The notes: generated by a model not told the origin, from the sequence alone. 59,976 nucleotides of DNA from Nitrospira sp. UW-LDO-01 (GCA_002254365.1 NIUT01000012.1:1-59976), one strand, 5' to 3'. Counted from the stretch's first letter, positions 30,741 through 56,041 are shown. Numbers and translations are program-made.

Positions 30741-30783
30741 CCCGCTCCCCTATTTGCCTAAGTTACTACGAAGGAGAATTCGC

Positions 30784-31980
30784 ATGGCTAAGGTGTTGGA
30801 AGGCCCCGGCATGGGGCTGATGAAGAAGTGGGGGATTCACGTCCCCAACTATGTCGTCGTCACGTCCGTTGACGAACTGACCAAGCTCGGACAAGCCAAT
30901 GACTGGATGAAGACCTCGAAGTTGGTGGCGAAGGCGCACGAGGCACTCGGCTCACGTTTTAAGCTCGGTCTGGTCAAGGTTGGTTTGGATCTCAACAGTG
31001 CAATCGCAGCGACAAGGGAAATGCTCGGTCGGCAGGTCGGCAGCATCACTGTGTCGCAGGTCATTGTTTCAGAGATGGTTCCACATAAAGAGGAATACTA
31101 TTGTGCTGTGAAGTCTACCCGCGAAGGCAGCGAGATTCTTGTCGCCAATTGCGGTGGGATCGAAGTTGAGTCGAACTGGGATCGTGTGAAACGTCTCTGC
31201 TTGGAAGTCGGACAGGCCCCCTCGGCGGGTCAGCTTGAAAAACTTTCAAAAGAGGCCGGATTTACGGGCCCGCTCGCGAAAAAGATGGCCGATTTTTCCG
31301 GCAAGATGTTTACCTGTTTCGATACCGAGGATGCGCAATATCTCGAAGTGAATCCCGTCGTGACACGCGAGAGTGATGGCGAGTTGGTCGCGCTTGATGC
31401 GGTCACGTTGCTGGACGGTGACGCCAAGTTCAGGCATCCGGATTGGAACTTTCAATTTGCAGCTGAATTCGGCCGTTCTTACAGCAAGGATGAAGTAGAA
31501 GTCATGGCGGTCGACAGCAAGATCAAGGGCTCGGTAAAGTTTATCGAGATTCCAGGTGGGGACACGGCCATGCTGCCGGCCGGCGGCGGCGCGAGTGTCT
31601 ATTATTCCGATGCCGTCGTGGCACGTGGCGGCAAGCTGGCAAACTACGCGGAGTATTCCGGTGATCCTCCGGACTGGGCCGTGGAAGTACTGACGGAAAA
31701 AGTCTGCTCGTTGCCCGGTATCAAGAACATCATCGTCGGTGGGGCGATTGCGAATTTTACCGACGTCAAGAAGACCTTCGGCGGCATCATTAACGGATTT
31801 CGCAAAGCGAAGGGCGATGGCAAGTTAAAGGGCGTGAAGATCTGGGTGCGCCGAGGCGGGCCGCGTGAGAAGGAAGGTCTCGATGCAATGCGCGCACTCA
31901 AGGACGAGGGCTTCGACATCAACGTCTTCGACCGCAACACCCCACTGACGGACATCGTCGATAAAGCGTTACAAAAGTAA
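30784..31980 (+). CDS. aclB: ATP-citrate lyase, small subunit
   Basis: The 398-residue protein is related to succinyl-CoA synthetase beta (ATP-grasp) and matches the AclB subunit length of green sulfur bacteria. Family text includes MGLMKKWGIHVPNYVVV, the ATP-grasp region YCAVKSTREGSEILVANCGG, EVNPVVTRESDGELVALD and LPAGGGASVYYSDAVVARGG. With AclA it cleaves citrate to acetyl-CoA and oxaloacetate, the key reaction of the rTCA cycle. GAAGGAG precedes the ATG at 30784. It heads an eight-gene operon. Confidence 0.95.
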   Translation: MAKVLEGPGMGLMKKWGIHVPNYVVVTSVDELTKLGQANDWMKTSKLVAKAHEALGSRFKLGLVKVGLDLNSAIAATREMLGRQVGSITVSQVIVSEMVPHKEEYYCAVKSTREGSEILVANCGGIEVESNWDRVKRLCLEVGQAPSAGQLEKLSKEAGFTGPLAKKMADFSGKMFTCFDTEDAQYLEVNPVVTRESDGELVALDAVTLLDGDAKFRHPDWNFQFAAEFGRSYSKDEVEVMAVDSKIKGSVKFIEIPGGDTAMLPAGGGASVYYSDAVVARGGKLANYAEYSGDPPDWAVEVLTEKVCSLPGIKNIIVGGAIANFTDVKKTFGGIINGFRKAKGDGKLKGVKIWVRRGGPREKEGLDAMRALKDEGFDINVFDRNTPLTDIVDKALQK

Positions 31981-32055
31981 CGAGCTATCAGCTATTAGCC
32001 ATCAGCGGTCGGCTGAATGCCGAGCGCTGGAAGCTTCACTGTTGGAGGACTTTCG
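31981..32055 (+). repeat. Word-repeat spacer aclB-aclA
   Basis: The spacer is built from similar words (AGCTATCAGC, AGCCATCAGC) followed by a partial complement (GGCTGAATG), allowing an imperfect hairpin around CATCAGC/GCTGAATG, before the Shine-Dalgarno GGAGG of aclA. Confidence 0.55.
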
Positions 32056-33876: not shown

Positions 33877-33932
33877 TGCTGAGTAACCAGCGCTGAGTTC
33901 TGAGTGAGGAGTTATTCTCGGCACTCAGCACT
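33875..33932 (+). repeat. Inverted repeat with CTGAGT words, aclA-acnA spacer
   Basis: AGTGCTGAGT (33875-33884) and ACTCAGCACT (33923-33932) are perfect 10-bp complements; the left arm includes part of the aclA stop codon. CTGAGT occurs three times in the first half of the spacer. No T-tract follows, so termination is unlikely. Confidence 0.75.
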
Positions 33933-33954
33933 TCAAGCTCTAAGGAGATAAGTC

Positions 33955-36201: not shown

Positions 36202-38457
<2,256 letters not shown>

Positions 38458-38468
38458 AAAACGAGAGG

Positions 38469-38509
38469 AAGGGGTGAGAAGTGAGGTGTAGAGTTTCACC
38501 TCACCCCTT
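38469..38509 (+). repeat. Nested inverted repeats, icd-frdB spacer
   Basis: AAGGGGTGAG (38469-38478) complements CTCACCCCTT (38500-38509), and within it GTGAGGTG (38481-38488) complements CACCTCAC (38497-38504) around an 8-nt loop. The two stems overlap and are alternative structures. No T-run follows. Confidence 0.75.
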
Positions 38510-38536
38510 ACCGTTCACCCCGCACTGGATTGAACA

Positions 38537-39250
38537 ATGGCTCAAGAATCAAGCGAGAATGTGATCGATCAACCTGAGGTCATGAAGCCTCGGATGGTCA
38601 CGATCGAAATTGCCGGCAAGAAAGTTGACGTACCGGAGGGGATTACTGTCGTCCGTGCGATGTGGTATGCCGGGATTGATGTCGTGCGTGGCGTGGGTTG
38701 TCTTGGTGGATTCTGCGGCGCCTGTGCCACGTACTATCGGACGAAAGATGATCCAAAAGTGAGAACCTGCCTCGCCTGTCAGATGGCGGTACAGGACGGT
38801 ATGTCATTTACGATGATGCCACCCTTCCCGGCCCGGAAGGCCACGTACGACATTCAGACACTTCAAGACCCCAAACAAGATTTGTTCAATCTCTATCCGG
38901 AAGCGCCGCTGTGCCGAAATTGTAATGCCTGCACCGAGGCCTGTCCGCAGAAAATCGATGTGCGGGAAGGGGTCTGGAAGGCCGTTTTCGGCGACTTCAA
39001 GAGCGTTTCCGAGATGTTTATGGATTGTGTCATGTGCGGCATGTGCACGCCGGTCTGCATTGCCGACATTGCGCCGAATCTCGTCGCCCTCTATGTCAGT
39101 CGTGCGCAGGGAGCGCATTTTACCGACAAGCCGGCCGGGCTCGACACCAGAATCAAAGAGATTCAAGATGGCACGTTTAAGGACGAATGGGCCAAGATTC
39201 TCAAAATGAATGAGGAAGAATTGGCCGAACATTGTGCAACGGTGAAATAG
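38537..39250 (+). CDS. frdB: Fumarate reductase/succinate dehydrogenase-like iron-sulfur protein
   Basis: The 237-residue protein has a plant-type [2Fe-2S] N-terminal domain (CLGGFCGACATYY then CLAC) and a C-terminal domain with CRNCNACTEACP and CVMCGMCTPVC, giving further clusters. That is the arrangement of Sdh/Frd B subunits. No membrane anchor gene is in the operon, so the complex with the flavoprotein is probably soluble, like cytoplasmic fumarate reductases of other rTCA organisms. The electron donor is unknown. Confidence 0.82.
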   Translation: MAQESSENVIDQPEVMKPRMVTIEIAGKKVDVPEGITVVRAMWYAGIDVVRGVGCLGGFCGACATYYRTKDDPKVRTCLACQMAVQDGMSFTMMPPFPARKATYDIQTLQDPKQDLFNLYPEAPLCRNCNACTEACPQKIDVREGVWKAVFGDFKSVSEMFMDCVMCGMCTPVCIADIAPNLVALYVSRAQGAHFTDKPAGLDTRIKEIQDGTFKDEWAKILKMNEEELAEHCATVK

Positions 39251-39265
39251 CCGCCAGACCATCAG

Positions 39266-39282
39266 CTCTCAGCTTCTGAGAG
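39266..39282 (+). repeat. Perfect 7-bp hairpin, frdB-frdA spacer
   Basis: CTCTCAG-CTT-CTGAGAG lies 16 bp after the frdB stop. A second small stem, TAGCT-GAA-AGCTA (39301-39313), follows just before frdA. Both are built from the same AGCT/CTCAG vocabulary as other spacers in the operon. Confidence 0.7.
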
Positions 39283-39316
39283 ACGGTGGGTGAACGTTGG
39301 TAGCTGAAAGCTAGAC

Positions 39317-40900
39317 ATGGACATTCACGCGCTCCAGCAGATCGTACATCAGACTCGGGATGCCCGGCGTAAGCAGACCATCCCCAAGTTTTCTCCGACA
39401 GACCGAGACCACCTGATTCACAAGTACCATCCGGATTTTCGTGCGAGCGCCTACCGACCGATCAAGTTCGGTCCCAACGAAGGCGACAAAACCGTCGTCG
39501 AACTCGCGACCTTGCTCGAAGGTGACAGCTCCATCCAGGATAACGCCGATCTCACACCCCAATATTCATGCGATGTCTTGGTTATCGGTGGTGGAGGCGC
39601 CGGTTGTGCCGCGGCGTTGCATGCTCATCATGCCGGTGCAAAAACGATTCTCGCGACCAAGCTGCGTCTCGGCGATTCCAATAGCGTGATGGCGCAAGGC
39701 GGGATGCAGATTTCCGTTGCCCCTGAAGACTCCCCGGTCACGCATTTTATTGACACGCTCAAGGGCGGGCACATGGAGAACGACCATGCCTTGCTCAAAG
39801 TCATGGTCGAAGAGGGGCCCTCGATCGCGAAATGGCTCTTGGAGTTAGGTGTGCTGTTCGATCGCCAAGCCGACGGCAATCTCCATGTGAAGAAGGGCGG
39901 AGGGAGTTCCAAGCCGCGCCTGTTGACCTGTTCCGATTACACGGGCCTCGAAATCATGCGCGTTCTGAAAGATGAGGTCATCAATCAAAAGATTCAATTG
40001 TTGGAGTTCGCTGCCGCCGTTGAGCTGTTGAGCGATGGCCAAGGGACCTGCACCGGGGCTATTTTTAGAGATCTTGATAATCAGCGGCATATCGTGGTCG
40101 CAGCCAAGTCAGTGATTTTGGCAACCGGTGGCATCGGTCGGCTGCACATTCAAGGATTTCCGACGAGTAATCACTATGGGGCGACTGGTGACGGGCTCTG
40201 TCTGGCCTATCGCATGGGTGCCAAACTCGCGCATGTCGATACGTTTCAATATCACCCGTCCGGTGCGGTCTATCCCGAGCAATTGATCGGGGCGTTGGTC
40301 ACTGAGGGAATTCGCTCCGAAGGCGGGCACCTGGTGAATGCGAAGGGCGAACGGTTCGTCAACGAACTTGACACACGGGATGTCGTATCCTCGTCGATCA
40401 TCCGTGAATGTGAAGAAGGGCGTGGGATCAGAACGATGTCCGGCCGCGTCGGTGTCTGGCTCGATACGCCGTTACTGGATGCAGAACATGGGTCAGGGAC
40501 GGTGGAGAAGCATTTCCCAGCCATGATGATGCAGTTTGAGCGCTTCGGGATCGATATCAGTAAGGATCCGGTCTTGATCTATCCGACGCTCCACTATCAG
40601 AACGGCGGGGTAAAGATCGATACGAACTCAGAAACCAACGTCAAAAATCTGTTCGTCGCTGGAGAAGCTTCCGGAGGGCTGCACGGGCGAAACCGTCTCA
40701 TGGGGAATTCGTTGTTGGACCTCATGGTATTCGGCAAGCGATCAGGGTTGACGGCCGCCGGTCGCGCCAAGTCGATGAAACAGGGTGCGCTGACCCTCAG
40801 GCATGTGCAACAGTTCCGTGCCGAAGCAAAGAAGCAGGGGAACGCCAGTGGTGTCATCTCGCCGATGATCTTGCCGGCGTATACAAGAAAAGTTGGCTAG
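39317..40900 (+). CDS. frdA: Fumarate reductase flavoprotein-like subunit, probable non-covalent FAD
   Basis: The 527-residue protein has the FAD dinucleotide fold VLVIGGGGAGCAAALHA (about residues 90-106), the substrate region FQYHPSG and TEGIRSEGG (catalytic Arg), and LHGRNRLMGNSLLDLMVFG. In SdhA/FrdA the FAD is attached to a His in a SHTV motif; here the sequence is SNSVMAQGG, with Asn at that place, so FAD is expected to be non-covalent, as in aspartate oxidase and some soluble fumarate reductases. An N-terminal extension of about 85 residues is unusual. It pairs with the frdB gene. Confidence 0.85.
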   Translation: MDIHALQQIVHQTRDARRKQTIPKFSPTDRDHLIHKYHPDFRASAYRPIKFGPNEGDKTVVELATLLEGDSSIQDNADLTPQYSCDVLVIGGGGAGCAAALHAHHAGAKTILATKLRLGDSNSVMAQGGMQISVAPEDSPVTHFIDTLKGGHMENDHALLKVMVEEGPSIAKWLLELGVLFDRQADGNLHVKKGGGSSKPRLLTCSDYTGLEIMRVLKDEVINQKIQLLEFAAAVELLSDGQGTCTGAIFRDLDNQRHIVVAAKSVILATGGIGRLHIQGFPTSNHYGATGDGLCLAYRMGAKLAHVDTFQYHPSGAVYPEQLIGALVTEGIRSEGGHLVNAKGERFVNELDTRDVVSSSIIRECEEGRGIRTMSGRVGVWLDTPLLDAEHGSGTVEKHFPAMMMQFERFGIDISKDPVLIYPTLHYQNGGVKIDTNSETNVKNLFVAGEASGGLHGRNRLMGNSLLDLMVFGKRSGLTAAGRAKSMKQGALTLRHVQQFRAEAKKQGNASGVISPMILPAYTRKVG

Positions 40901-40904
40901 TGAT

Positions 40905-40948
40905 GAGGACTGAGTAAAGGCACGATTCGCCCTCGGTCCACAGTCCTC
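40905..40948 (+). repeat. Inverted repeat, frdA-sucC spacer
   Basis: GAGGACTG (40905-40912) and CAGTCCTC (40941-40948) are perfect 8-bp complements. Similar words (CTCGGTCC, CCTCGGTAC) repeat in between and after. No T-tract follows. Confidence 0.7.
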
Positions 40949-40982
40949 GGTACTCCGTCCTGAAGCGACGATAAGGAGCGAT

Positions 40983-42161
40983 ATGAACGTTCACGAGTTT
41001 CAAGCGAAGTCATTGTTTGCTCAATTCGGTGTGCCGGTGCCGCGAGGTAAGGAGATTACGTCTCCTGAAGCGGCGACCGCCTGGGCCACTGAACTGAATA
41101 CGCCCGTGTTTGTCGTGAAGGCACAGATCCATGCCGGCGGCCGAGGGAAGGCCGGTGGAGTAAAAATCACCAAGGACAAGGCGGCGGTGGCAGGATTTGC
41201 GAAAGAACTCATCGGTAAGACGCTGGTGACGCATCAGACCGGACCGAAGGGTCGCCAGGTTCATCGGCTGTTGATGGAGGAGGGGGCGAACATCGCCAAG
41301 GAACTCTACCTATCGATTCTTGTGGATCGCGAGACGGGGTGGCCTACGTTTATCGCCAGCACAGAGGGCGGAATGGAAATCGAAGAGGTGGCCGCCAAAA
41401 CTCCGGAAAAGATCATCAAGGAACCGATCGATCCTGCCGTGGGATTTCAGGGATACAACGGGCGGAACATCGCCTTTGCCCTTGGGCTTCAGAACATCGA
41501 GCCGACCGCTATGAATCCGTTCATTAAAATGCTAGGGAATCTGTACCGCTTGTTCATGGAGAAGAACTGCGCCCTGGTCGAAATCAATCCGCTTATCATC
41601 ACGAAAGAAAAGACCGTCGTGGCGCTGGACGGGAAAGTCTCGTTCGACGACAACGGGCTCTTTAAACATGAAGATGTCCAGAAGATGCGCGATCTGAACG
41701 AAGAAGAGCCGCTTGAAATCGAGGCGACGGCGAATAATCTGAACTATGTCAAGCTCGACGGCAACATCGGTTGCATGGTGAATGGGGCTGGTCTGGCGAT
41801 GGCTACGATGGACGTCATCAAGTTGGCAGGCAGCGAGCCAGCGAACTTCCTGGACGTGGGCGGAGGCGCGACGAAAGAGACGGTTGCGGCAGGATTCCGG
41901 ATTCTGCTGAAAGATCCGAACGTCAAGGGCATCTTCATCAACATCTTCGGTGGGATCGTGCGCTGTGAACGTATTGCTCACGGGGTCATCGAAGCAGCCA
42001 AGGAAGTGAAAATCAACGTGCCCCTCGTGGTCCGACTGCAGGGGACGAATGCCGAAGAGGGGCGCAAACTGTTGGCAGATTCAGGATTGAAGCTCGATGT
42101 CGCCAACGATCTGTGGGAAGCCGCCCAAAAAATCGTGAAATTGACCGGCAAGGCAGCGTGA
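40983..42161 (+). CDS. sucC: Succinyl-CoA synthetase beta subunit
   Basis: The 392-residue protein starts [22 protein letters not shown], an ATP-grasp fold as in SucC, with [14 protein letters not shown] and EINPLIIT. It activates succinate to succinyl-CoA using a nucleoside triphosphate, needed before the 2-oxoglutarate synthase step. The ATG is preceded by AAGGAG. It is followed by sucD after 156 bp, longer than usual. It ranks among the most conserved genes in the window. Confidence 0.96.
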
Positions 42162-42317
42162 GCGAAAGGTGCGACGGGCCAGTCTTCAGTGCTCGCCCAC
42201 CGCGCACAGATGAGTCAATTAGATTATCGGACAGAGTTCGGCGGTCTGTGGATGCGCGCAGTATGAAGACCGACCCGGCACACCTTCTTAAAAAGGAAGG
42301 TAAGAAAAGAGGAAACC

Positions 42318-43190
42318 GTGAGCATTCTCGTCAATAAGAATACACGAGTAGTGGTACAGGGAATTACGGGAAAAGAAGGTTCGTTCCACGCGACTCAATG
42401 TAAGGCCTACGGGACCAAGGTGGTCGCTGGTGTCACGCCTGGCAAGGCAGGGCAAGAGGTTGAGGGGATCCCTGTGTTCAACACGGTGGCGGATGCGGTG
42501 AAAAAGACCGAGGCCGATACGTCGCTGATTTTCGTGCCGCCGCCGTTTTGTGCCGATGCTATTTTGGAAGCAGCTGACGCAGGAATCAAACTTGTGATTT
42601 GCATCACCGAGGGGATTCCGGTCAATGACATGGTAAAAGTGAAACGGGCCTTGCGCGGCCGCGATGTCCGGTTGATCGGCCCGAATTGCCCAGGAGTGAT
42701 TACGGTAGATGAAGCTAAGATCGGCATCATGCCGGGTTTCATTCACAAGAAGGGTGTTGTCGGCGTGGTGTCACGCAGTGGGACCTTGACTTATGAAGCG
42801 GTCCACCAGCTCTCGACATTGGGCTTAGGCGAAACTACGTGCGTAGGAATTGGTGGTGATCCTGTGAACGGCACAGGGTTCGTGGATGTCCTCCCTCTGT
42901 TTGAAAAAGATCCCGAGACTCAGGCCATTGTCATGATCGGCGAGATCGGCGGCGATGCGGAAGAAAAGGCCGCTGAGTTCGTCAAGAAGAATGTCAAGAA
43001 ACCAGTCGTTAGCTTCATCGCGGGCATTACGGCACCTCCTGGCCGTCGCATGGGTCACGCCGGTGCCATTATCTCCGGTGGCAAGGGGACGGCATCTGAA
43101 AAGATGAAGACGTTGGAAGCCGCGGGTGTCACGGTCGTGAAGAATCCGGCTGAGATCGGAGAGGCAGTGAAGAGGGCATTAGGACGGTAG
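42318..43190 (+). CDS. sucD: Succinyl-CoA synthetase alpha subunit
   Basis: The 290-residue protein begins [21 protein letters not shown] and has the phosphorylated His in [12 protein letters not shown] (H247). It forms the heteromeric enzyme with SucC. The start is a GTG with GAGGAAA upstream. Its opening resembles that of AclA (MSILANKDTRVVIQGG), reflecting their common ancestry. It is the last recognised gene of the rTCA run; no clear terminator follows directly. Confidence 0.96.
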
Positions 43191-44374: not shown

Positions 44375-45226
44375 ATGAAAACTAGAATTTCGGCGATGAT
44401 TTTCCTCCTCTGCGCCGTTGGTACGGCTCAGGTGGCGCGGGCCGAGGATCCATACACTGCACGGGTCGCTGATCCCTATGCGTTATCCTCCGGTCTGCCC
44501 AATATGTCGTCTGGTACGATCGAGCCCTATCTCTCCTTTATGGCAGGTATCGCAATACCGTTCAGTCAGGACGCCACATTTAGGGATGGAAGTACACCGA
44601 CAGTGGACCGAGATGTCGACTATCAGAACAAACAATCGATCGGTGGTAACGCGGGGGTTTGGTTTCCAACCAGAAACAAGTTGGTGGGATTCGATCTTGG
44701 GGTTGAGATCACTGGTTTTATTTGGTATCCGGACGTGGCCTGCTGTCGGGAAAACTTTAATGGAGTGCCGGCAAACAATTCCCAAGGGTTTGAGGGTACC
44801 ACGACTGAGATCCAAGGTATCTACGTTGGTTCAAATTTCCTGATTCGCCGACCGATGGCGATTTCCGAGGCCTATCCCAACGGGCGGTGGCACCCCTACG
44901 TCGGGATCGGTGTGGGAGCACATCAGCTCGCAATGCGGCCAGGTGGTGCCAGGGGAGCTGAGTTTGCGAATCCTCTCACTGATCAGCGGGATACGTCTAT
45001 TGCCTTTATGGGCGTGGGAGGAATCAAGGCCCATCTGTTCAAGTACGTGGCCGCGTTTGTGGAGGCGAAGTATGTTCGAGCCTTTCATGACGATCTGAAC
45101 ACGGATCGGTTCGGACAGTCCTTAGCCTTTCAAGGTACTGGTCTCATCCTAAATCAATATGAGTCCACGATCAGCACGATTTTTGTGCATGCGGGCTTAT
45201 CGATTCACTTTGACATCAAGCCGTAG
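44375..45226 (+). CDS. Outer-membrane beta-barrel protein
   Basis: The 283-residue protein has a signal peptide (MKTRISAMIFLLCAVGTAQVARA) and a mature part of alternating short strands and turns, ending in HAGLSIHFDIKP with a hydrophobic, aromatic-rich C-terminal strand typical of barrels. Family text such as YVGIGVGAHQL and FVEAKYVRAFHDD resembles OmpA-like/OMP beta-barrel domains. It probably lies in the outer membrane; function unknown. GGGAGGG precedes the ATG, and a strong terminator follows. A pair of adjacent Cys (ACC) is present in one loop. Confidence 0.8.
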   Translation: MKTRISAMIFLLCAVGTAQVARAEDPYTARVADPYALSSGLPNMSSGTIEPYLSFMAGIAIPFSQDATFRDGSTPTVDRDVDYQNKQSIGGNAGVWFPTRNKLVGFDLGVEITGFIWYPDVACCRENFNGVPANNSQGFEGTTTEIQGIYVGSNFLIRRPMAISEAYPNGRWHPYVGIGVGAHQLAMRPGGARGAEFANPLTDQRDTSIAFMGVGGIKAHLFKYVAAFVEAKYVRAFHDDLNTDRFGQSLAFQGTGLILNQYESTISTIFVHAGLSIHFDIKP

Positions 45227-45243
45227 GTTCTCACCAGATTTAG

Positions 45244-45279
45244 ACAGTCCCCTATCGACAGCGGTAGGGGACTGTTATT
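45244..45279 (+). terminator. Rho-independent terminator of the beta-barrel gene
   Basis: ACAGTCCCCTA (45244-45254) and TAGGGGACTGT (45265-45275) form a perfect 11-bp stem, followed by TATTC. The T-run is short, but the stem is strong and well placed. Confidence 0.85.
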
Positions 45280-45405
45280 CAAAAATGTTCTAACTCCCGG
45301 TCTTTTCCCTTCTTCTCTCATTCCTGTTTTTCGGGTAAGACACAACATCAGTTGATATGCTTCCAAGGTAAGGCAAAGTATGTTGCTATTAGATAGCAAA
45401 GACGC

Positions 45406-45759
45406 TTAGGCGGGTACTGAGAGGAGGTTTGTCTCTAAGGCGAGCTCTTGTGACACGACTCGATCCAGTCGGTGGCGAGCGAGTGTCGGCACACGGATGA
45501 ATTCCACACCGAATGTCTGATCCTTCACCCATCGGATTTTCCCGAGCTCGATGAACAAAGACGATGTGGGGTCAGGTAAGAGGACGCTCAGCTTAATGTA
45601 GCTACCCATTAAGACGGTCCGGTCACAGTTCACGGAACAGCCGGTCAGGGAGATATTTGAGATGGTTCCTTCTCCGACAAATGGGGCCCCTCCAAAGATG
45701 ACCGGATAGGCGACGGAAAGCCGATGATGAATTCGCCAGTTCACAATCGTATTAGCCAT
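45406..45759 (-). CDS. PilZ domain-like protein
   Basis: The 117-residue protein starts MANTIVNWRIHHRLSVAYPV, with the R-xxx-R-like WRIHHRL region, and contains TISNISLTGCSVN (N/DxSxxG) as in PilZ. It should bind c-di-GMP or be a degenerate relative. AAGGAGG precedes the ATG. It lies downstream of the secretin gene on the same strand, separated by 305 bp. This suggests a link between second-messenger signalling and the secretion/pilus apparatus. Confidence 0.75.
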   Translation of the reverse strand: MANTIVNWRIHHRLSVAYPVIFGGAPFVGEGTISNISLTGCSVNCDRTVLMGSYIKLSVLLPDPTSSLFIELGKIRWVKDQTFGVEFIRVPTLARHRLDRVVSQELALETNLLSVPA

Positions 45760-46064: not shown

Positions 46065-47810
46065 TTAGGGTCTGCTGGGCCTGTCACTAGGGGAGCCTTG
46101 GGGCATGACCGCAGGAGGCTCGAGGCGCTCAAGCATATCTTGCTTGAGTCTGGTCGGTTCCTCAATCCGATTGTCACGCTGCAAGGAATTGACATCTCGT
46201 GCTTTTCTGGCGTTGAGTTCGGCCATGTCTGCGTCGTCTCGAATCAAATGCGGGGTCAAAAAGACAAGCAGGTTCAATTTCTCAGTCTGGCGATTCTGTG
46301 ACTTAAACAACCACCCCAGCCATGGAATATCGCCTAAGAGAGGGATCTTCTTTTCGCTCAGTGTAATGTTGTCGCGCACTAACCCCCCGATAACGAGTGT
46401 CTGTTGGTCTTGAGCGATAGTTGTCGTCTCCATGGAGCGCTTGGTGGTGGTGGGGCCGACGGGGATGCTGGCTGAGCCTGCCCCGATCGTTTGAGCGACA
46501 TTCTCCGCGATCGCGGTAATCTCTTGCTTGATTTCCAGCCGGATCAGGTCATCTTCAAGCACTTGGGGAGTTAACTCCAAGGTCACGCCGACGTCTTTCC
46601 GTTCGATCGTCACCAATGTTCCACCCGTGATGCCTTGGGCTTGCCCGGTTGGGAATGGTCGATTTTCACCGACAACGATCTTTGCCTTTTGGTTATCGGC
46701 GGCTAACACCTGAGGGGTGGAAAGGATGTTCGTATCGGTGAGGTTCATCAGGAGGTTCATAAATGCCCGCACATTCACGGTGTTCAACACGGTCACCGCG
46801 CCGCCAGTCGCCCCACCTGCCGCCACACCACTGATGGCTTGCGCAACGGAGGCGAGTTCCTCTGGCGCTCGGTTGAATCCACCGATCCCTTGCAGAAATC
46901 CAGACTTTCCCGCGCCTAATACCTGAGTTGGGTCGGTGCCGATTTGCCGTAAGCGGTCAACTTGAACTTCCAAGATTACTGCTTCAACAAAGACCTGTTT
47001 ACGCCGGATGTCTAAGTCATGAATCACGGCATGGATGTGAGTCCATGCATTTTTGGTTGAGCTGACGATAATTGAGTTCGTGGCCTTATCTGCAAACACC
47101 TGGACAGGAGCTTCAAATTCCGTCAGCGGCCTGATCGGGGGCCGAACGCCGGGTGTGATTTGAGCCACGGTTTGAGAGCGGGCCACTAAATTGGTAAGAA
47201 CCGCAGCAAGATCTGTGGCGTTGGCGTGTTTGAGCTTGTAGACAAACACCCCCCGCTCAGGCGGGAGATCACCCATCGGTACGATTTGATAGAGATTGCC
47301 ATCCTTTTTAACGACCGCGATGCGAGCCGCTTCGAGTGCCGCCACGAACATGCTGAACGCCTGGTCCGGAGAGACTTTGGTTGGGGAAAATGCCGATATC
47401 TTTCCCCCTTGCTTTTTGATGGTTTCATCCAGCACGAAGTTTTTGCCGGTGAGCTCCCCAATGAACCTGGCAAAGACAGGGATATCAATTTCGTTGAAAT
47501 CCAGAGAGACCTTGGCCGGTTGCGAGCCCGTTCCTTGGGCGAACAGATCGAGTGGAAAGAGCGCCGACCAGCAGAGTGCCGCCGCTACCAGATAGGTGCC
47601 CACCCATCTAGCCGTAGGTAAAACACGTGGGAGACTTGGATGAAATTGCACGATGGAGCTAGGAATTCCGTGGTTCTCCCGAAAGTCAGCAACTGCGTTT
47701 GACCGTACCATAGGCAGATCCAAGGACACAACCAGGATTACATTTTGTGGTAGTCCGAGCCCGATACTCGTGTTAGCCAGCTCTCCAACTGGGATATGAA
47801 GCATCTCCAA
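46065..47810 (-). CDS. GspD/PilQ-type secretin
   Basis: The 581-codon frame includes an N0-like domain (VSLDFNEIDIPVFARFIGEL), N1-type repeats (VFVYKLKHANATDLAAVLTN), and the secretin C-domain with STPQVLAADNQKAKIVVGE, VGVTLELTPQVLEDD, and SEKKIPLLGDIPWLGWLFKS. It forms the outer-membrane channel of a type II secretion or type IV pilus system. A hydrophobic signal-like stretch lies at about residues 69-91, so the true start may be the ATG at codon 34 or later. No other secretion genes adjoin it; the divergent neighbour is the giant TPR protein. Confidence 0.88.
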   Translation of the reverse strand: MEMLHIPVGELANTSIGLGLPQNVILVVSLDLPMVRSNAVADFRENHGIPSSIVQFHPSLPRVLPTARWVGTYLVAAALCWSALFPLDLFAQGTGSQPAKVSLDFNEIDIPVFARFIGELTGKNFVLDETIKKQGGKISAFSPTKVSPDQAFSMFVAALEAARIAVVKKDGNLYQIVPMGDLPPERGVFVYKLKHANATDLAAVLTNLVARSQTVAQITPGVRPPIRPLTEFEAPVQVFADKATNSIIVSSTKNAWTHIHAVIHDLDIRRKQVFVEAVILEVQVDRLRQIGTDPTQVLGAGKSGFLQGIGGFNRAPEELASVAQAISGVAAGGATGGAVTVLNTVNVRAFMNLLMNLTDTNILSTPQVLAADNQKAKIVVGENRPFPTGQAQGITGGTLVTIERKDVGVTLELTPQVLEDDLIRLEIKQEITAIAENVAQTIGAGSASIPVGPTTTKRSMETTTIAQDQQTLVIGGLVRDNITLSEKKIPLLGDIPWLGWLFKSQNRQTEKLNLLVFLTPHLIRDDADMAELNARKARDVNSLQRDNRIEEPTRLKQDMLERLEPPAVMPQGSPSDRPSRP

Positions 47811-48227
47811 GTCCTTGTCTGCTCAACCGAAACGGAGCAGGTGGGCAGTGTCTTGCCTGTATTCCCTAAACTAATGAATTTCATGAAAAAGCCGATAATC
47901 AATTGAAAAAGGATGGGTATCGGAACAGAGCAAGGAGCAACTCGTTTAAGCCGACTGGCGCTGGTAGGGCATGGACGTCTGTTGTTCGTACAGGAAACTA
48001 GTGGTGGGCGGGCTGGTGCGAGCGCAGTCATAGACCAAAAGCGTAAGGAATAAAGTAGTTAGGTCATTTGATATCAATAGGTTACAAGGCTGCCCGTTGA
48101 ATTTCTACGGTTTCTGACTCCCGAGCATCTTTCTTTCGGTCTTAGGCTTGCTGAGGAGATCAAGCGGGAGACTTCGGAAGAGTGTCCATTGGGCTCTTAG
48201 GCACTGGAGATCTGCTAAGGTTAATCC
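47811..48227 (+). other. Divergent intergenic region, secretin/TPR genes
   Basis: These 417 bp separate the secretin (minus) from the large TPR protein (plus), so promoters for both should be here. No clear -35/-10 pair or operator was recognised. No small gene was identified. Confidence 0.5.
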
Positions 48228-51200
48228 GTGCGTTGGAATAAGAAACCCTCAATAAAATCAGATAAGACGGAGACGATCCGTACGCCGAAGCGTGGGGTAG
48301 TCGGCTACAGCAGGAAGAGTGCGCTGCTGGAAGAGGCGATTACCCAAATGAACGCAGGGAAGTATGGGCGGTCATCCGCTGCGCTCAAGGAACTGCTGGC
48401 CCTCGACCCAGTGAATATGGAGGCGCGACGGCTTTTCGCGACCCTTCATCTTCGACTGGGAAGCCTCATTCCCGCAAGAGAAGCGTTCGACGGCCTGCTT
48501 GCCGAAGCCTTTCAGCGCCAAGACTACTGGCTCGCAGAATCCTTACTCCGTGAGTACCTCGCCGCCGGTCCGCGCTGTGTGCCCTACCTTGAAAAACTTG
48601 GGACCATCTATCAAGAAAAGGGAAATGTCCTTGAAGCCGTTGAAGAGTACGGAAAGGCTGTCGATATCTTAATTGAAGATCCGGATCCCGAACGTCCGGA
48701 TCATGCAGGGCAACTCTATTCAAAAATACGCGAACTGGCCCCGGCGAGCCCTGTGGCGTTTCGCTTGGCTTCCTTTTTTGATGCGGAAACCGGCCAGTTA
48801 GTGCCACGTCAACCGAGTGTCCTCGGGACCGACACTGTCCTACATCAAGACCTTCTTGACGAAGACTCACGGGAAGAAATCGCTCCTTCTAGAGCGGCTG
48901 GAGTGATGCCATGGGAAGTCCAAGTTTCCCCTGAGGGGGTGGGGCCATCGGGTGCAACGTCGTCTCCAGGTGAAAGTGCACAACCAACTACGCAATCCGA
49001 CCGCAGTACTGATCCTCTGCAACACGTTCAGTCTTCTGACCACAGTCTAGACCAGTCGCGCGAGCTTCCAGCTGCCGAGGGAGAACCTGCTGGCATCAAC
49101 GCTCAAACTCATCGACAGGCCGAAGACTCTATCCCAGAGGCTGGACAGGTTCCGACTGTAACGGAGATAGCTCGGTTCACAGAGCAGGAGGTGGCCAGCG
49201 ATTCTCCTCCTTCGCTCGACCCCGTAGATTCCCAAGCAGAGATCTCTATGGCGCCGTTGGACGCGCATCGTGATGTGGTGGATACCGATTCTGCCACGCT
49301 TCAGGCACCGGAGCTAGTGCCGTCTGGAGCTGCAGAGGCAACAGCTGTCGTAGAGGACTGTCCCGCATCCGCAGCGACGAGGGTGGATCCTGAGCAGGCA
49401 GTCGACCCTTCTGGCAGTTTCTCCGCGGATATGGCGGAACCCAGTCTGCCACCCCAGTCTGAGACCGACAAAGAGCCCATCCCATCTGTTAGGACAGATG
49501 CATCACTTTCAGCGTCGATACTGGTCTCAAACAACGAGAAAGCCTCTCGTTCGACCGACCAAGTCGAGCCGATGAAAGCAGAAGAGAGCGCCGGCTCTAC
49601 CGATTCGCCCATCGCTTCCGCACCAGTCGCGGTCGATGAAACAGCTCAGCCTTGGAAGCAACCAGGGTTTTCATGGAAATCCGTCTTTGATACAGCCTGG
49701 AAGTTCGGAGAGCAATCTCCTCCAAAGGATGAGTCAACGGCTCCAGCGCCGACTCGTCTGGATAAGATTGTTACAGACACTCCCCCTGTCCCAACCCCAC
49801 AGGACCAGATGATCCAGGAATCCGGAACAGAGATTCCAACGGGAGAGAAAGAAGCTCAGAAAAAAGATGAAGAGCCGTCAAAATCGCCGATTGCACCAAT
49901 GCCATGGGATCAGGTGCAGGAGTCGGTGCTCTCGATCCCTTCCGTCGAGATGGGTCCTCCGATTGTGGCAGAACCCCTCGAACAATCCGTGGAGCAACCA
50001 CAAGCGTCAGACAGCTCTCCACAAGTTTGTGAGAGTCAACTGCCATCTTCACCATTGACCAAGAGTCCTGCTCCAGAGCCGGACACATTTACGTTTGCAC
50101 AAGATGGTCCAGTCGCGCACTCAGAGGAACGGCACGATTCGGTCGTGGAGACGGGCGAGCCATCCGTGACGAACCAAGATACAGCGCAGATTGCGGAGTC
50201 AGCGCCGTTGTTCTCCCTCGTACAATCATCGCACGCCGACGATGTGGTATCGATTTCCTCACAGGAGTCTCCAGCTCAAACCTGCACCAAGGACTCGAGT
50301 CTAGACTTAGCCACGGATCAGCACGAAGTGCATGGTAACCCGACCGAGTTTTCCATCAAACAAGAGCAGCCCCACCTCAGTGACGTGACTGAGGAGATTG
50401 AGCAAGGTCCCAAGGCGGAATTCCAGACGCCTGATTCTCAACCTGTCGACAAGGCCCTCCCCGAGGAAAGCGAGACCATTCGAGCTGTTGAGCCTGCTCC
50501 CATCGAACCACGTGCAACGGAGTCCATTGTAGAGAATGGTGGGGGCTTGCCCGAGACTCCGCAAGCATCAAGGGTGGTGCTTCCCGACGATCAGTCTCCA
50601 GAGGTGATGAACGTTCAAGCCCGCTCTCCGATTCCTGAGCCCATACCGGCTCAACAAGAGCGGATGGAGGCTGATGACTGGATGCAAGCAGGTCAAGAGC
50701 CTGTTGCGACCGCCGTCGCACCGGCGGACCCGGCGATTCTTGAGCGGCAGGAAGTCAGCCAGCCACTGCCGGCGGCTCACGAGACTGATGCTGCGTTCGT
50801 CGAATCTTCGGGGATCAAGAGGGCGCCGGAGGCGAGAACGCGTGTTGAGGAACCAGCACAGAGGCAAAAATCTACTGCAATTGTAAATGGGCTGGGAATA
50901 GCGATCCTAGGCTTCCTGCGTAGCTGCTTCTCGACCACTCAGGCCATCGTGAGGACTGTGGTCGGGTTGACGCTGCTGATCGGGGTCTGTGCCGCGCTTG
51001 GTCTTGGAGCGCTGGCCCTGACATGGATGATCATGGAAGAACCGCCGTCACCGACTTTTCAGAGTTTTACGACGACGCCGCAACAGACCATCGTTGGGGC
51101 TCAAAAGAATGCATACACGCTGCTGCTTGGGATCGATGCCCCAGCGGGGCAAGATCCTCTCCGCGCTGGGGGTGAGGGGCAATCTGCCATCGGAGACCAC

Positions 51201-52328
51201 ATAACCGCATTGAGTTGCTTCGGAACTCCTGGGGCAGAAACAGGTGATCGGTCGAGTGCGTCCGGCAGCACCATGCGTGGATGGGTTCGAGGATCGGACC
51301 CAATTGGCCAATTCAAGTCGAATCAGGGGACCATTCAAGGATGGGGGAGCCGACATCAGGCGACGCTTGACCGGTATCGTCAATGGCAAAAGCTTCCATT
51401 CGAAGACTGGGGCTACGGTCAACCTGCCCGTCCACCCTGCGAGGCGATGGTGTTTGCCCACCAACTGCATGTAGCCGATGGATTCGTACAAGGGACGGAC
51501 GTTGCTGTCGATCGGCTTGAAACCGACATGGAGATGTGGCGCGTCGTACTGAGCCAGGCACGGACGCTCCCTGTGAAAATGTTGGCGCTGCAAGCGATCA
51601 ACGACGACATTGCCCTCGCCTCGGGGTTGCTCGTCCGTTCGGATTTCGACACAAAACATCTAGGGCGCATCACCAAGTTTGTACGACCTCTCGACCAAGC
51701 CGAGCTGTCGTTGCGGTGGCCGATGCAAAGCGAACTAGTTTCGGCTGGGAAGATCTATGAGAGTCAGTTAAAAGCCGCGAGAGCTGAAGGTCAGGCAATA
51801 TCCGCGATGGTGGTATCGGCACTGCCTTTACCGAAACAGCGCCGGCTCAATGACTATGCCAAGTATTACGAAGCGTCGTACCAAGTCACCGGAGAAAAGC
51901 ATTATGATTCCCTGCCGAAGTGGAAAGACCATCTGCGTTTTCCTGCGGCTGGTGTGATGGATTATCTTGCCAACCCGATTGAGAATCTGGTCGGCATTGC
52001 CCCGCTGCCCGCATGGGATGTGTACAATGGAATGATGGTGGATACAGATGCCCATCTCAGGTTGGCGAGTTTACAGGCGTGGTTGCGACGCGGATCTTCA
52101 GAGGGAGATCTTCCCAACAAGATCGCCAAAGCTGGGCAGAATTTCTACGATCCCTACACGGGCCTCCCGATGTTGGTGAATCAGAAAAAGGGCCTACTGT
52201 ACAGTGTCGGCCACGATGGTAAGGATCAAGATGCAGATCCACAAGTAGATGTGGTCGTAGAGCTTCCCGGCACATATACCTCCGCCAGCCAGGCGAAATC
52301 CTCCGCCTCTTCATCGAAATCGAAATAG
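48228..52328 (+). CDS. Very large TPR, disordered, membrane-spanning protein with pseudopilin-like C-terminus
   Basis: The 1366-residue protein is not a recognised family. Residues 1 to about 200 form TPR-like repeats (ITQMNAGKYGRSSAALKEL, LGTIYQEKGNVLEAVEEYG). From about 215 to 880 there is a low-complexity region rich in Pro, Glu, Ser and Gln, with short repeated words MPWEVQ, FSWKSVFDTAWKFG and MPWDQVQ. A membrane segment lies at about 905-934 (VVGLTLLIGVCAALGLGALAL). The remaining 430 residues are probably periplasmic and end in FYDPYTGLPMLVNQKKG and LLYSVGHDGKDQDADPQVDV, like the calcium-binding tail of pseudopilins. The start is GTG with AAGG upstream. Confidence 0.75.
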   Translation: MRWNKKPSIKSDKTETIRTPKRGVVGYSRKSALLEEAITQMNAGKYGRSSAALKELLALDPVNMEARRLFATLHLRLGSLIPAREAFDGLLAEAFQRQDYWLAESLLREYLAAGPRCVPYLEKLGTIYQEKGNVLEAVEEYGKAVDILIEDPDPERPDHAGQLYSKIRELAPASPVAFRLASFFDAETGQLVPRQPSVLGTDTVLHQDLLDEDSREEIAPSRAAGVMPWEVQVSPEGVGPSGATSSPGESAQPTTQSDRSTDPLQHVQSSDHSLDQSRELPAAEGEPAGINAQTHRQAEDSIPEAGQVPTVTEIARFTEQEVASDSPPSLDPVDSQAEISMAPLDAHRDVVDTDSATLQAPELVPSGAAEATAVVEDCPASAATRVDPEQAVDPSGSFSADMAEPSLPPQSETDKEPIPSVRTDASLSASILVSNNEKASRSTDQVEPMKAEESAGSTDSPIASAPVAVDETAQPWKQPGFSWKSVFDTAWKFGEQSPPKDESTAPAPTRLDKIVTDTPPVPTPQDQMIQESGTEIPTGEKEAQKKDEEPSKSPIAPMPWDQVQESVLSIPSVEMGPPIVAEPLEQSVEQPQASDSSPQVCESQLPSSPLTKSPAPEPDTFTFAQDGPVAHSEERHDSVVETGEPSVTNQDTAQIAESAPLFSLVQSSHADDVVSISSQESPAQTCTKDSSLDLATDQHEVHGNPTEFSIKQEQPHLSDVTEEIEQGPKAEFQTPDSQPVDKALPEESETIRAVEPAPIEPRATESIVENGGGLPETPQASRVVLPDDQSPEVMNVQARSPIPEPIPAQQERMEADDWMQAGQEPVATAVAPADPAILERQEVSQPLPAAHETDAAFVESSGIKRAPEARTRVEEPAQRQKSTAIVNGLGIAILGFLRSCFSTTQAIVRTVVGLTLLIGVCAALGLGALALTWMIMEEPPSPTFQSFTTTPQQTIVGAQKNAYTLLLGIDAPAGQDPLRAGGEGQSAIGDHITALSCFGTPGAETGDRSSASGSTMRGWVRGSDPIGQFKSNQGTIQGWGSRHQATLDRYRQWQKLPFEDWGYGQPARPPCEAMVFAHQLHVADGFVQGTDVAVDRLETDMEMWRVVLSQARTLPVKMLALQAINDDIALASGLLVRSDFDTKHLGRITKFVRPLDQAELSLRWPMQSELVSAGKIYESQLKAARAEGQAISAMVVSALPLPKQRRLNDYAKYYEASYQVTGEKHYDSLPKWKDHLRFPAAGVMDYLANPIENLVGIAPLPAWDVYNGMMVDTDAHLRLASLQAWLRRGSSEGDLPNKIAKAGQNFYDPYTGLPMLVNQKKGLLYSVGHDGKDQDADPQVDVVVELPGTYTSASQAKSSASSSKSK

Positions 52329-52466: not shown

Positions 52467-53912
52467 GTGAAGAAGGGTACGGTCTGTCCGACTCGGATTC
52501 CGACGCAGATCGTTTCGAACGAAGAGTTCCGCCCCATTCCTCAGACGAGACAGCAGCATCGTGTCGAGCAAGTAGCTGAGGGTCTGATAGAACGGGCGGT
52601 GACTCGTAGCGGAGTGACCAGGCGAGAGTTCTTGAACGCAACCAGCGGAATGGCTGTGGCTCTGTTGGCCATGAACACCGCATTCGGCAGATTTTTTAAT
52701 ATTGAAGAAATCGAGATCTTCGAGACCTCGGCGTTCGCGGAACAACAGGGCGCTCCCTATTTTATCTTCGACGTGCAAACTCACTATGTCGGATCCGGCT
52801 ATGACCCTACTGATGCGGAAGCGAATCGCAAAGGCGCCGTGTCCAAACACGCGTTGCTGTCGTTGCGGCGGTCCATCCGTGAGTCCGGGCTCAATCCACG
52901 ATTGGCTGGTGATCGGGGTACCCTCGATGACTTGTCCTGGAAGAATTTCATCAAGGAAGTATTTTTTGACAGCGAAACCGCGATTGGCCTGATCAGTACG
53001 CCGCCTGGGCCCTATCCACAAGAAGCCGTCGTCCCACCAAAGGAAATGGCCCATATCCGAGACGAGGTTAATCGGTTAGCCGGCTCACAACGGATGTTGG
53101 CCCATGGTCTGGTGACGCCCCAGTTGGGTGTTGCCGATTTGGACTTCATGGCCATGCAAGCCGAGACGCTCAAGGTCGATGCCTGGAAGTGCTACACCGG
53201 ATCCTGTCCAAAGGGATTCGACCGAGGCTGGCGGATGGATGATGAACGGATCGCCTATCCGATGCTGGAGCAAGCGAGAAAACTGGGCATCAAGCGAATC
53301 TGTGTCCACAAGGGACTGCCACTAGGTCCTGTGCCGGACTACAATCATCCGAGAGACTTGATTCGGGCGGCCAAAGACTTTCCCGATCTTAACTTTTTGG
53401 TGTATCACTCGGGTCTTCGAGGTGTCACGTCGATCGAACAGATCTTTGCCAAGACCGGTGAAATTCCATGGACCACAGAATTCTGCCGGATGAAGGAGGC
53501 TGAGCCTGGTATCTCCAATATCTATATGGAGCTGGGATCGACGTTTGCCCAGTTGGTGACCACCTATCCTTTGATTTGTGCGCACCTGCTGGGACGGGTC
53601 ATTCATGCGTTCGGCGTCGACCACGTCTTGTGGGGAACGGATTCGATCTGGTATGGAACACCTCAATGGCAAATTGAAGCCTTTCGACGATTTCAGATTC
53701 CCGAGGCATTGATCCAAGAACACCACTATCAACCTCTGACCAGACAGATCAAAGAACGAATCTTTGGTCTCAATGCGGCGACGGTGTTCGGGATTGATGT
53801 GGAGACGATACGACACGAGGTGCCACGTGACGCTCTGGGCCGGCTCCGTATGAGCTACCTGGAGGAGGGGCCGGAGCCGAGTCGTCGGGTCTATGGGTGG
53901 ATCGCGGGGTGA
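52467..53912 (+). CDS. Tat-exported amidohydrolase-2 family protein
   Basis: The 481-residue protein has a twin-Arg motif with a hydrophobic segment (TRREFLNATSGMAVALLAMN) at about residues 51-70, after an extended N-terminus. The following domain is amidohydrolase-like (FIFDVQTHYVGSGYD, KRICVHKGLPLGPV, FLVYHSGL, HVLWGTDSIWYGTPQWQ), with metal-type His/Asp positions; a TIM-barrel decarboxylase or hydrolase. The substrate is unknown. The Tat export implies a folded metalloprotein in the periplasm. The GTG start has little Shine-Dalgarno support. Confidence 0.8.
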   Translation: MKKGTVCPTRIPTQIVSNEEFRPIPQTRQQHRVEQVAEGLIERAVTRSGVTRREFLNATSGMAVALLAMNTAFGRFFNIEEIEIFETSAFAEQQGAPYFIFDVQTHYVGSGYDPTDAEANRKGAVSKHALLSLRRSIRESGLNPRLAGDRGTLDDLSWKNFIKEVFFDSETAIGLISTPPGPYPQEAVVPPKEMAHIRDEVNRLAGSQRMLAHGLVTPQLGVADLDFMAMQAETLKVDAWKCYTGSCPKGFDRGWRMDDERIAYPMLEQARKLGIKRICVHKGLPLGPVPDYNHPRDLIRAAKDFPDLNFLVYHSGLRGVTSIEQIFAKTGEIPWTTEFCRMKEAEPGISNIYMELGSTFAQLVTTYPLICAHLLGRVIHAFGVDHVLWGTDSIWYGTPQWQIEAFRRFQIPEALIQEHHYQPLTRQIKERIFGLNAATVFGIDVETIRHEVPRDALGRLRMSYLEEGPEPSRRVYGWIAG

Positions 53913-54074
53913 GTTGGGCAACGGTACCCCATGTTCGCTGCCCGCTCAGCACGCACGTAAGAATGATGTGGATAGTTGACCAATAAGAGGTGGTGCTTGG
54001 CGCATGTGCACAATCAAGGCATGGACCAGCCTCGTTCATCATGTGTGACAGGAAAATAGAGAGGAGATGAGATA

Positions 54075-54758
54075 ATGAAGAGTGAAATCCTATATCCGGG
54101 GGCGTTTCCCATGGCCCGTGTGGAGTTAGGCAATGGAGAGCAAATCAAGGCGGAGTCAGGTGCGATGGTAGCCTGCTCGCCGACTATCGATATTGAGAGC
54201 AAGATGGAAGGCGGATTTTTGGGAGCCCTCTCACGAAAGTTTCTGACCGGAGAAAAGTTTTTTTTCCAGACACTCAAAGCCACTCGAGGAGCCGGTGAAG
54301 TCTTGCTGGCTCCGACGGTGCCGGGGGAAATTGTTGTCTTGGAGCTCGATGGGGTCAATGAGTACATGGTGCAGAAGGATGGGTTTTTGGCCGGGGCGGA
54401 TGGGGTGACCATCGACAGTCAGATGCAGAGTATGAGTCGAGGGTTGTTGGGTGGCGAAGGGTTTTTCATTCTGAAGATGAGTGGGAAGGGGATGCTTCTG
54501 CTTAACAGCTTTGGGGCTGTTCACAAGATCGAATTGAAGCCAGGCCAGGAATACATTGTGGACAACAGTCATCTGGTCGCCTGGTCGACCACAACGTCCT
54601 ACAACATTGAGAAGGCCACCTCGGGATGGGTGGCGAGTTTTACCTCGGGCGAAGGCTTTGTCTGTCGATTCCGTGGGCCGGGTGTTGTCTACATTCAGAG
54701 CCGGAATCCTGGTGGCTTTGGAGCGTGGGTCAGACAGTTCATCCCCGTCACTGAGTAG
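54075..54758 (+). CDS. AIM24/TIGR00266 family protein
   Basis: The 227-residue protein starts MKSEILYPGAFPMARVEL and has the AIM24 repeats GEQIKAESGAMVACSP, the aromatic GFVCRFRGPGVVYIQSRNP, and a repeated beta-structure. AIM24 proteins form beta-sandwich folds found in bacteria and mitochondria; function is unclear. A GGAGATGAG stretch precedes the ATG. The next gene (M48 protease) is 134 bp downstream and may be co-transcribed. Confidence 0.85.
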   Translation: MKSEILYPGAFPMARVELGNGEQIKAESGAMVACSPTIDIESKMEGGFLGALSRKFLTGEKFFFQTLKATRGAGEVLLAPTVPGEIVVLELDGVNEYMVQKDGFLAGADGVTIDSQMQSMSRGLLGGEGFFILKMSGKGMLLLNSFGAVHKIELKPGQEYIVDNSHLVAWSTTTSYNIEKATSGWVASFTSGEGFVCRFRGPGVVYIQSRNPGGFGAWVRQFIPVTE

Positions 54759-54892
54759 CGATGGCTGAAAATGGCCACCAACTTTGTTCTCGGCTCGCAG
54801 AAAATCCTCACCGTACCCCGGAGGGTACGCTTCCGGTTTCCGCTTGCCTGCGGCCTCGTTGGCAACCATTTTGAGCTGCCGCAAGTCTTGCA

Positions 54893-56041
54893 ATGACAAT
54901 AGATACTCCTAACGCGCTCTGCTTCGGTGATGAGTTCCCTGCCAGCGGGACGCCTTGCCTTGTCCATGTTGAAGGCCAGGGGTTGACGATCGCGTTTCTC
55001 TCGGATCGTGAGGAGGGCGAGAGTCGATCGGAGTTCGTGGAATTTTCAGAACTCACGATCTCTGCGGGCGGGTTAGATCATAATCAGCTCGTTGCGGCAT
55101 GGGCGAGTTCAGCTGGGCAGCGGACGCTGTATCTGAAAAGCCCCGAGCTCATTCGAGCCTTTCGTCAAGCGGCGCCTGCCCACTTGAGTCAGCCGCTGGA
55201 GCAAGCCGCCGAGCAAGTCCGTCAGGTCCGACAACGGCATCGGGTCGTATGGGGGCTTGTCGGCGGAACGATCCTTGCGGTGATGCTGAGCTTGTGGTTT
55301 GGGAGTGACGTATTAGTTGAACTTGCCGTCAATCGCATTCCGGTCGAGTGGGAACAGAAGTTGGGTGAATCAGCCTATCGTGAGTTTCTGACAGGGCAGG
55401 ATGTGATGAAAGATGGACTCGCGGTGGGTGCGGTCAAGGAAATGACCCAGCGCCTAGCCAGTCATGTGCCCCACAATCCGTATCGATTCGATGTCACTGT
55501 GGTGAAGAGCGATGTCGTGAATGCATTTGCACTACCTGGTGGGTATGTTGTTGTCTTCACGGGCTTGATGAAAAAGGCGGACAGTCCGGAAGAAGTGGCG
55601 GGAGTCTTGGCGCATGAGCTGAACCATGTGCTCCAGCGGCATGGCCTTGAACGGATCATTAAACAGCTGGGGTTTGTGGCCGTCGTGTCGATTGTGTTGG
55701 GCAATCCGCCCGGACTGGGTGGGGTCATGAAACAGCTCGGCATTGAATTGATGACGTTGAAGTTTGGCCGCGCGCAGGAGACGGAGGCGGATACCACCGG
55801 GCTTGATCTACTGCATCGTGCCAAGGTGAACCCCGAAGGCATGATCACGTTCTTTCAGCGACTGGCTGAGAAGGATGATGGGCGAGTCGAGTGGCTCTCC
55901 ACCCATCCGATGAGCAGTGCCAGAGCGGATCATCTCAAAGCACGACTCGCGGAGATGCCAAAGCAGACGTCTGAGCCGTTCTCGTTCGAGTGGTCCAAGG
56001 TTCGCGATGCACTGGGTGTGTCATCAGGCTCTGCTCCGTGA
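54893..56041 (+). CDS. M48 family membrane-associated metallopeptidase
   Basis: The 382-residue protein has a single predicted membrane segment at about 120-142 (VWGLVGGTILAVMLSLWFG), then an M48 domain with the zinc motif VLAHELNHVLQRHG (HExxH) and the downstream Glu in QETEADTTGLDLLHRA. It is thus a BepA/Oma1-like protease acting in the periplasm on misassembled envelope proteins. The first 100 residues have an unrelated beta-rich domain. Its stop overlaps the start of the phosphoesterase gene by 4 nt. Confidence 0.9.
   Translation: MTIDTPNALCFGDEFPASGTPCLVHVEGQGLTIAFLSDREEGESRSEFVEFSELTISAGGLDHNQLVAAWASSAGQRTLYLKSPELIRAFRQAAPAHLSQPLEQAAEQVRQVRQRHRVVWGLVGGTILAVMLSLWFGSDVLVELAVNRIPVEWEQKLGESAYREFLTGQDVMKDGLAVGAVKEMTQRLASHVPHNPYRFDVTVVKSDVVNAFALPGGYVVVFTGLMKKADSPEEVAGVLAHELNHVLQRHGLERIIKQLGFVAVVSIVLGNPPGLGGVMKQLGIELMTLKFGRAQETEADTTGLDLLHRAKVNPEGMITFFQRLAEKDDGRVEWLSTHPMSSARADHLKARLAEMPKQTSEPFSFEWSKVRDALGVSSGSAP

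Follow-up and report, generated by a model that had tools for sequence, protein, structure and literature searches.

The 59,976-nucleotide stretch of Nitrospira sp. UW-LDO-01 analysed in this work (GCA_002254365.1, NIUT01000012.1:1-59976; hereafter, at its full length, the window) carries a pair of divergent genes, one coding for a secretin (gspD; 46065..47711, minus strand, 548 amino acids from its ATG) and the other for a giant candidate scaffold protein of 1366 amino acids (48228..52328, plus strand, GTG start). An initial annotation, made from the sequence of the window, had proposed exactly this arrangement of a GspD-type secretin and a 1366-residue protein, and both open reading frames are indeed found where it had placed them. 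The start of the secretin is likely the ATG at 47711, rather than the TTG at 47810 that begins a TTG-started open reading frame, which leaves a divergent intergenic region of 516 bp between the two genes (47712..48227, no strand). In 55 related loci the start-to-start distance mostly lies between 325 and 1150 bp and reaches 3.3 kb at most. A scan of the window against Rfam gave no match.

Judged by its sequence and by those of its relatives, the giant protein is real and conserved, and it is without annotation in any library searched. Its gene, all parts of which are on the plus strand, opens with a tetratricopeptide repeat (TPR) domain (residues 1-190, 48228..48797; Pfam TPR matches at 34-147), continues with an acidic tether that its composition predicts to be disordered (residues 191-880, 48798..50867), and then codes for a single predicted transmembrane helix (residues 910-936, 50955..51035), an all-helical domain without a Pfam or PDB match (residues 941-1257, 51048..51998), and a tail (residues 1258-1349, 51999..52274) whose predicted model, a helix, a short helix and three strands with an invariant DP, YS-G and D-D loop, has the fold of the pseudopilin GspG. 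The TPR repeats and the single span are thus as first described. The 690 residues of the linker include 126 D/E, 41 K/R and just 17 F/W/Y. The segment at 910-936 is the only strongly hydrophobic one in the protein, and exactly one such segment is found in 76 of the 82 full-length relatives, where the median net charge is +3 in the 25 residues before the span and -2 in those after it. This flanking charge, together with the signal-anchor arrangement of a short paralogue described below, argues for an N-in/C-out topology, from which we infer a cytosolic location for TPR domain and linker and a periplasmic one for the C-terminal region of some 430 residues. The most conserved part across 79 distinct long forms is the TPR domain (identity to the window copy 74% in the median and 52% at minimum); the periplasmic domain has a median identity of 58%, and the linker varies in length from 356 to 1123 residues. 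A comparison of the TPR domain with a TPR protein of Granulicella (23% identity) was uninformative. AlphaFold models the whole periplasmic domain with a pLDDT of 84.6 and a pTM of 0.86; no clear relative of it was found in the PDB with Foldseek (best E 0.5), and the best hits of VIA-align (Z 7.2), being designed and helical repeat proteins, are uninformative, so that assignment to a known fold was rejected. Nor did the C-terminus of the giant find a family in Pfam, PDB sequences, PHROGs or a tblastn search of plasmids.

The linker also carries conserved docking-type motifs. When the linkers of the 79 distinct relatives were compared with shuffled ones, [ILMV]PW[DE][QH] was found 130 times against a shuffled mean of 0.125, and a second motif, [FL][ST]W[KEND]..[FL], 59 times against 0.175 expected; since related proteins are included, these counts are a sign of conservation rather more than a tally of independent events. 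The first motif, with the consensus P-M-P-W-[DE]-Q-[VI]-[EQ]-E, occurs in zero to five copies per protein (none in nine of the 79), its copies vary in the DNA at synonymous sites, and among the matches listed in the genomes of the family it is mostly located in the giant gene. The window copy holds one full first motif, PMPWDQVQE (residues 557-565, 49896..49922, plus strand), one near-copy, VMPWEVQ (residues 226-232, 48903..48923, plus strand), and the second motif as PGFSWKSVFDTAWKF (residues 479-493, 49662..49706, plus strand). The disordered linker with MPWEVQ/MPWDQ words of the initial annotation therefore stands, and the words are not there by chance; that they are repeated is weakly borne out in the window copy, where relatives reach five. 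In a genome without GspD and GspG (G009) the linker of the giant is just 362 residues long and is devoid of the PMPW motif. The motif was ruled out as a marker of type II secretion systems (T2SS), for the highest copy numbers are those of T2SS-less genomes of one genus (g18).

The secretin of the window has the Pfam domains N0 (E 4e-14), Secretin_N (1.5e-11) and Secretin (4e-47), with a single N domain detected besides N0 and the secretin domain. Its best NCBIfam model is that of GspD (TIGR02517), at 340.9 bits a near miss of the cut-off of 351.35, which is a curation threshold, and it falls more than 100 bits below the cut-offs of each of the PilQ, SctC and MshL models. Directly around the secretin and the giant there is no further secretion gene in the window, as the initial annotation had stated; another contig of the same genome (C166), however, carries a gspC-E-F-G-H-I run with no space for gspD between gspC and gspE, which rules out that the secretin is an orphan without a system. 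Two complete genomes of the genus (G102 and G073) likewise have a T2SS operon without gspD. In six other genomes (G002, G012, G021, G031, G077 and G104) an orthologue with 57-71% identity adjoins gspE in the T2SS operon, and in sister genera the order is gspC-D-E-F-G-H-I with the orthologue inside. At the level of sequence, then, the secretin is the GspD of a real T2SS. Two further secretins of the genome were tried as GspD and ruled out, that of C149 being a pilus secretin among pilM/N/O/P-like genes and that of C146 having its own ATPase and pseudopilins alongside; by these gene contexts both serve other machines. At the C146 locus (L080) the secretin is part of a TPR-plus-secretin protein of 780 residues, accompanied by gspE/gspF-like genes of its own and by pilin-like proteins, and the whole reads as a separate pseudopilus-type system. 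In another genome (G125, contig C37, L224) there is a second, diverged copy of GspD (66% identity) beyond the usual one.

The displacement of gspD from its operon happened once, in one lineage, the gene landing by the giant and staying there. A single departure is indicated by the maximum-likelihood tree of 61 GspD sequences, in which all 54 giant-adjacent copies share one side of a single branch (support 100/99); adjacency as a trait needs one change on this tree, against a shuffled mean of 6.7. The divergent pair is kept in 54 of the 54 sampled descendants of the move, and the operon-borne gspD genes (G002, G012, G021 and G077) lie at a great distance from the giant. The outer neighbours of the displaced gspD vary by genus (pyrF-holA-leuS, or the genes of a PilZ and an outer membrane protein) and the pair is constant, which argues for some advantage of the pair, even if gene order by itself is weak evidence for it. 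In the genome lacking both GspD and GspG, G009, the gene order is leuS-holA-pyrF-giant (L078), an order which suggests that gspD was lost from between these genes.

Does the giant then belong to the T2SS? Which genomes have which gene was read off search tables, to which draft genomes add noise, and kinship is ignored in the tests that follow. The C-terminal domain is found in 135 of 147 Nitrospiraceae genomes, 123 of which were read as having the long form and 12 the short form only. Among genomes at least 90% complete, the giant and GspD occur together in 68, the giant only in 28, GspD only in two and neither in 13 (Fisher p 3e-5). Hence there is an excess of co-occurrence, and both things on which the initial annotation had staked its proposal, a structural match to pseudopilins and co-occurrence with the secretin in other genomes, were found. 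The same counts, however, rule out the giant as an obligate part of the T2SS, and a strict partnership with GspD is excluded, because 28 of the 96 giant-bearing genomes of this completeness are without a GspD orthologue and a 100% complete genome (G031) shows the converse, GspD without the giant. Twenty-two of the 28 belong to the genus g18, whose giants are intact and mostly contain four to five motifs; most g18 genomes have a T2SSG match, and those examined have it with an adjacent gspE only 39% identical to that of the T2SS described here, which by this divergence reads as another machine. A looser link is left: all giant-bearing genomes have one secretin or more (123 with and none without, against 16 and eight in genomes lacking the giant; Fisher p 1.7e-7), and the eight genomes without any secretin all lack the giant. 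As 123 of the 147 genomes carry the giant, GspD-less ones included, its role should be a general one, and the secretin partnership is lineage-specific at best.

The reading we favour, tentatively and with somewhat less than even confidence, is that the giant is a general envelope scaffold which tethers cytosolic clients to a periplasmic site, rather than a dedicated part of the T2SS. Both the TPR domain and the repeated motifs would bind a client in the cytosol, the tether, being disordered, would give reach, and the periplasmic domain would fix the complex at an envelope site, probably an assembly site of a secretin or pilus-type machine. GspD would then be a lineage-specific neighbour of the giant and not its sole partner, possibly co-expressed with it through the divergent promoter region. 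The binding of clients, the marking of an envelope site and the service to secretin and pilus machines are all inferred. What holds of the initial idea of a scaffold linking the cytoplasm to the outer-membrane channel is thus the architecture reaching from cytoplasm to periplasm; a dedicated partnership with this secretin is not supported.

Around the pair, the giant is followed by genes of an amidohydrolase, an AIM24-family protein and an M48 protease (52467-56041), which stand after it in many genera and are more widespread there than gspD; AIM24 is 81-88% identical across the family. Behind gspD (44375-45759) lie the genes of a PilZ protein and of an outer-membrane-like protein of 283 amino acids without a Pfam match, both of which recur in a single deeper-branching member of the genus (L068), gspD having other outer neighbours elsewhere. 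Further away, at 30754-43190, there is a reductive TCA cluster with parts of ATP citrate lyase, aconitase, monomeric isocitrate dehydrogenase, Fe-S and FAD subunits, and the subunits of succinyl-CoA ligase.

Several observations weigh against a general envelope scaffold at sites of secretin machines. The widest-kept neighbours of the giant, just named, are non-secretion genes. The short paralogue (about 470-490 residues) consists of a signal anchor directly before the periplasmic domain with the same pseudopilin-like tail, and lacks both TPR domain and linker. By sequence reading its gene (L041-L060, several genera) diverges from btuF-btuC-btuD, a TonB-dependent receptor and cob genes, and this place by genes of vitamin B12 uptake hints that the periplasmic module has another use; with such a paralogue sharing it, the tail is no mark of secretion by itself. 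Moreover, most of the secretin-less genomes are small ones (1.6-2.7 Mb), and for this reason the joint loss of giant and secretins through genome reduction is a fair alternative to a functional tie. The paralogue and the steadier neighbours give some substance to the possibility, unlikely as we consider it, that the periplasmic module has nothing to do with secretion and serves in binding or sensing. The pseudopilin fold would then be just a stable periplasmic fold put to new use, the TPR domain and tether would convey the signal or client to partners in the cytosol, and gspD would be a chance neighbour. Across the phylum the C-terminal domain is confined to the Nitrospiraceae, save for three remote single-domain relatives in other families (G183, G193 and G298), and these too lie apart from secretion genes; a remote relative (P0004) found no match among plasmids. 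Chance, however, does not sit well with a gspD that stayed by the giant whilst its outer neighbours changed, nor a role unrelated to secretion with a giant that is never found in a secretin-less genome.

At the opposite end, the giant could be a dedicated T2SS accessory, whose tail engages GspD or the pseudopilus and whose cytosolic part recruits substrates or the ATPase, T2SS-less genomes having kept it for another secretin machine. The adjacency kept in all sampled descendants of the move, the fold of the tail and the excess of co-occurrence all favour this, as do the motif-less giants of three T2SS-less genomes (G009, with its short linker, G010 and G017). We nonetheless hold it to be rather improbable, given the many well-completed giant genomes without GspD, the intact and motif-rich giant of g18, the GspD of G031 without a giant, and the operon-borne gspD genes far from the giant.

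The tail itself very probably has the fold of the major pseudopilin GspG/EpsG, as far as a predicted model can tell. The last 92 residues (1258-1349), modelled alone, gave a pLDDT of 88 and a pTM of 0.78, with the secondary structure they have in the full model. Foldseek placed E. coli GspG second, at a weak E of 2.9, and when 144 candidates were re-ranked with VIA-align the top three were all T2SS major pseudopilins (GspG/EpsG), aligned over 74-84 of the 92 residues: 3g20_B (Z 7.4, rmsd 2.8, 84 residues), 3fu1_B (Z 6.9) and 4lw9_B (Z 6.6), followed by a type IV pilin (Z 5.2), the best non-pilin being at 4.5. The words noticed from the start, YDPYTGLPM (residues 1307-1315) and YSVGHDGKDQDADPQVDV (residues 1325-1342), contain the invariant residues D1308, P1309, Y1325, S1326, G1328, D1333 and D1341, which include the DP and the S-x-G-x-D...D pattern of GspG loops, and binding of calcium is possible. 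The pseudopilin-like C-terminus of the initial annotation is thus upheld by the predicted fold; profile comparison with GspG was not significant, hhalign giving a probability of 0.3-1.3% over 19 columns, equalled by two of 60 column-shuffled controls. One alternative view, which concerns the tail only and is compatible with the other readings, is that the tail is not truly pseudopilin-like: the short DP..G.P and YSVG.D words would have arisen by convergence, and AlphaFold would have produced an alpha-beta hairpin layout of a common sort. It draws on this profile result, on the Foldseek E value and on Z values under 8, and is improbable in the light of the three best matches, of the identical secondary structure in both models, and of a pseudopilin guess that came from sequence ahead of any structure. 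If the fold is taken at face value, one may speculate further, and with little confidence, that a membrane-anchored, non-polymerising pseudopilin-fold head docks on secretins or pseudopili from the periplasmic side, so that the TPR hub and the tether link the assembly or opening of these structures to a client in the cytosol; were this true, the giant would represent a novel scaffold class serving secretin machines, with a pilin fold as a fixed docking head.

Whatever its exact role, the giant emerges from this work as a conserved protein of nitrifying Nitrospiraceae, large and so far without a name, in which the domains of FimV/HubP are mirrored in order and the periplasmic end seems to reuse the pseudopilin fold. 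The single move of gspD to its side, kept ever since, offers a concrete interaction to test, and the PMPW[DE]Q repeat a ready bait for a cytosolic partner.

Of the known systems, GspD itself is the closest to the neighbour of the giant, which has the N0, N and secretin domains but is shorter (548 amino acids), with one N domain and a gene displaced from the operon in this lineage. The giant resembles GspG/EpsG in the predicted fold of its tail and in the DP-x-x-G-x-P and S-x-G-x-D ... D loop; it differs in that the prepilin signal, a GFTLxE-type cleavage site and the N-terminal pilin helix are absent from the sequences of the giant and its paralogues, Pfam finding no pilin match in the giant, and in that the fold forms the C-terminal end of a periplasmic protein that is helical and has a plain anchor. 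Polar organisers of the PodJ type have a cytosolic N-terminus, a disordered part, one span and a periplasmic C-terminus, together with coiled coils and Sel1 repeats, and the giant shares with them the first four of these features. To our knowledge, no short repeated motif such as PMPW[DE]Q has been described in FimV, HubP or TspA. These proteins have a periplasmic LysM-like domain, one span, a long acidic cytosolic region and a TPR domain (PMC12918733), and in fimV mutants PilQ forms fewer multimers and is delocalised, the localisation of PilO also being affected by FimV (PMC5285504). The giant likewise has the span, the long acidic cytosolic region and the TPR domain, but in reversed order, with the TPR domain first and the periplasmic part, of another fold, last. 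No LysM domain was found in it with Pfam and no FimV model with NCBIfam; a FimV_core search of its own genome gave no match, as did control genomes, and is therefore uninformative. Given the opposite domain order and the lack of a FimV model match, the giant is not a member of the FimV/HubP family, and it probably works like a FimV/HubP turned around.

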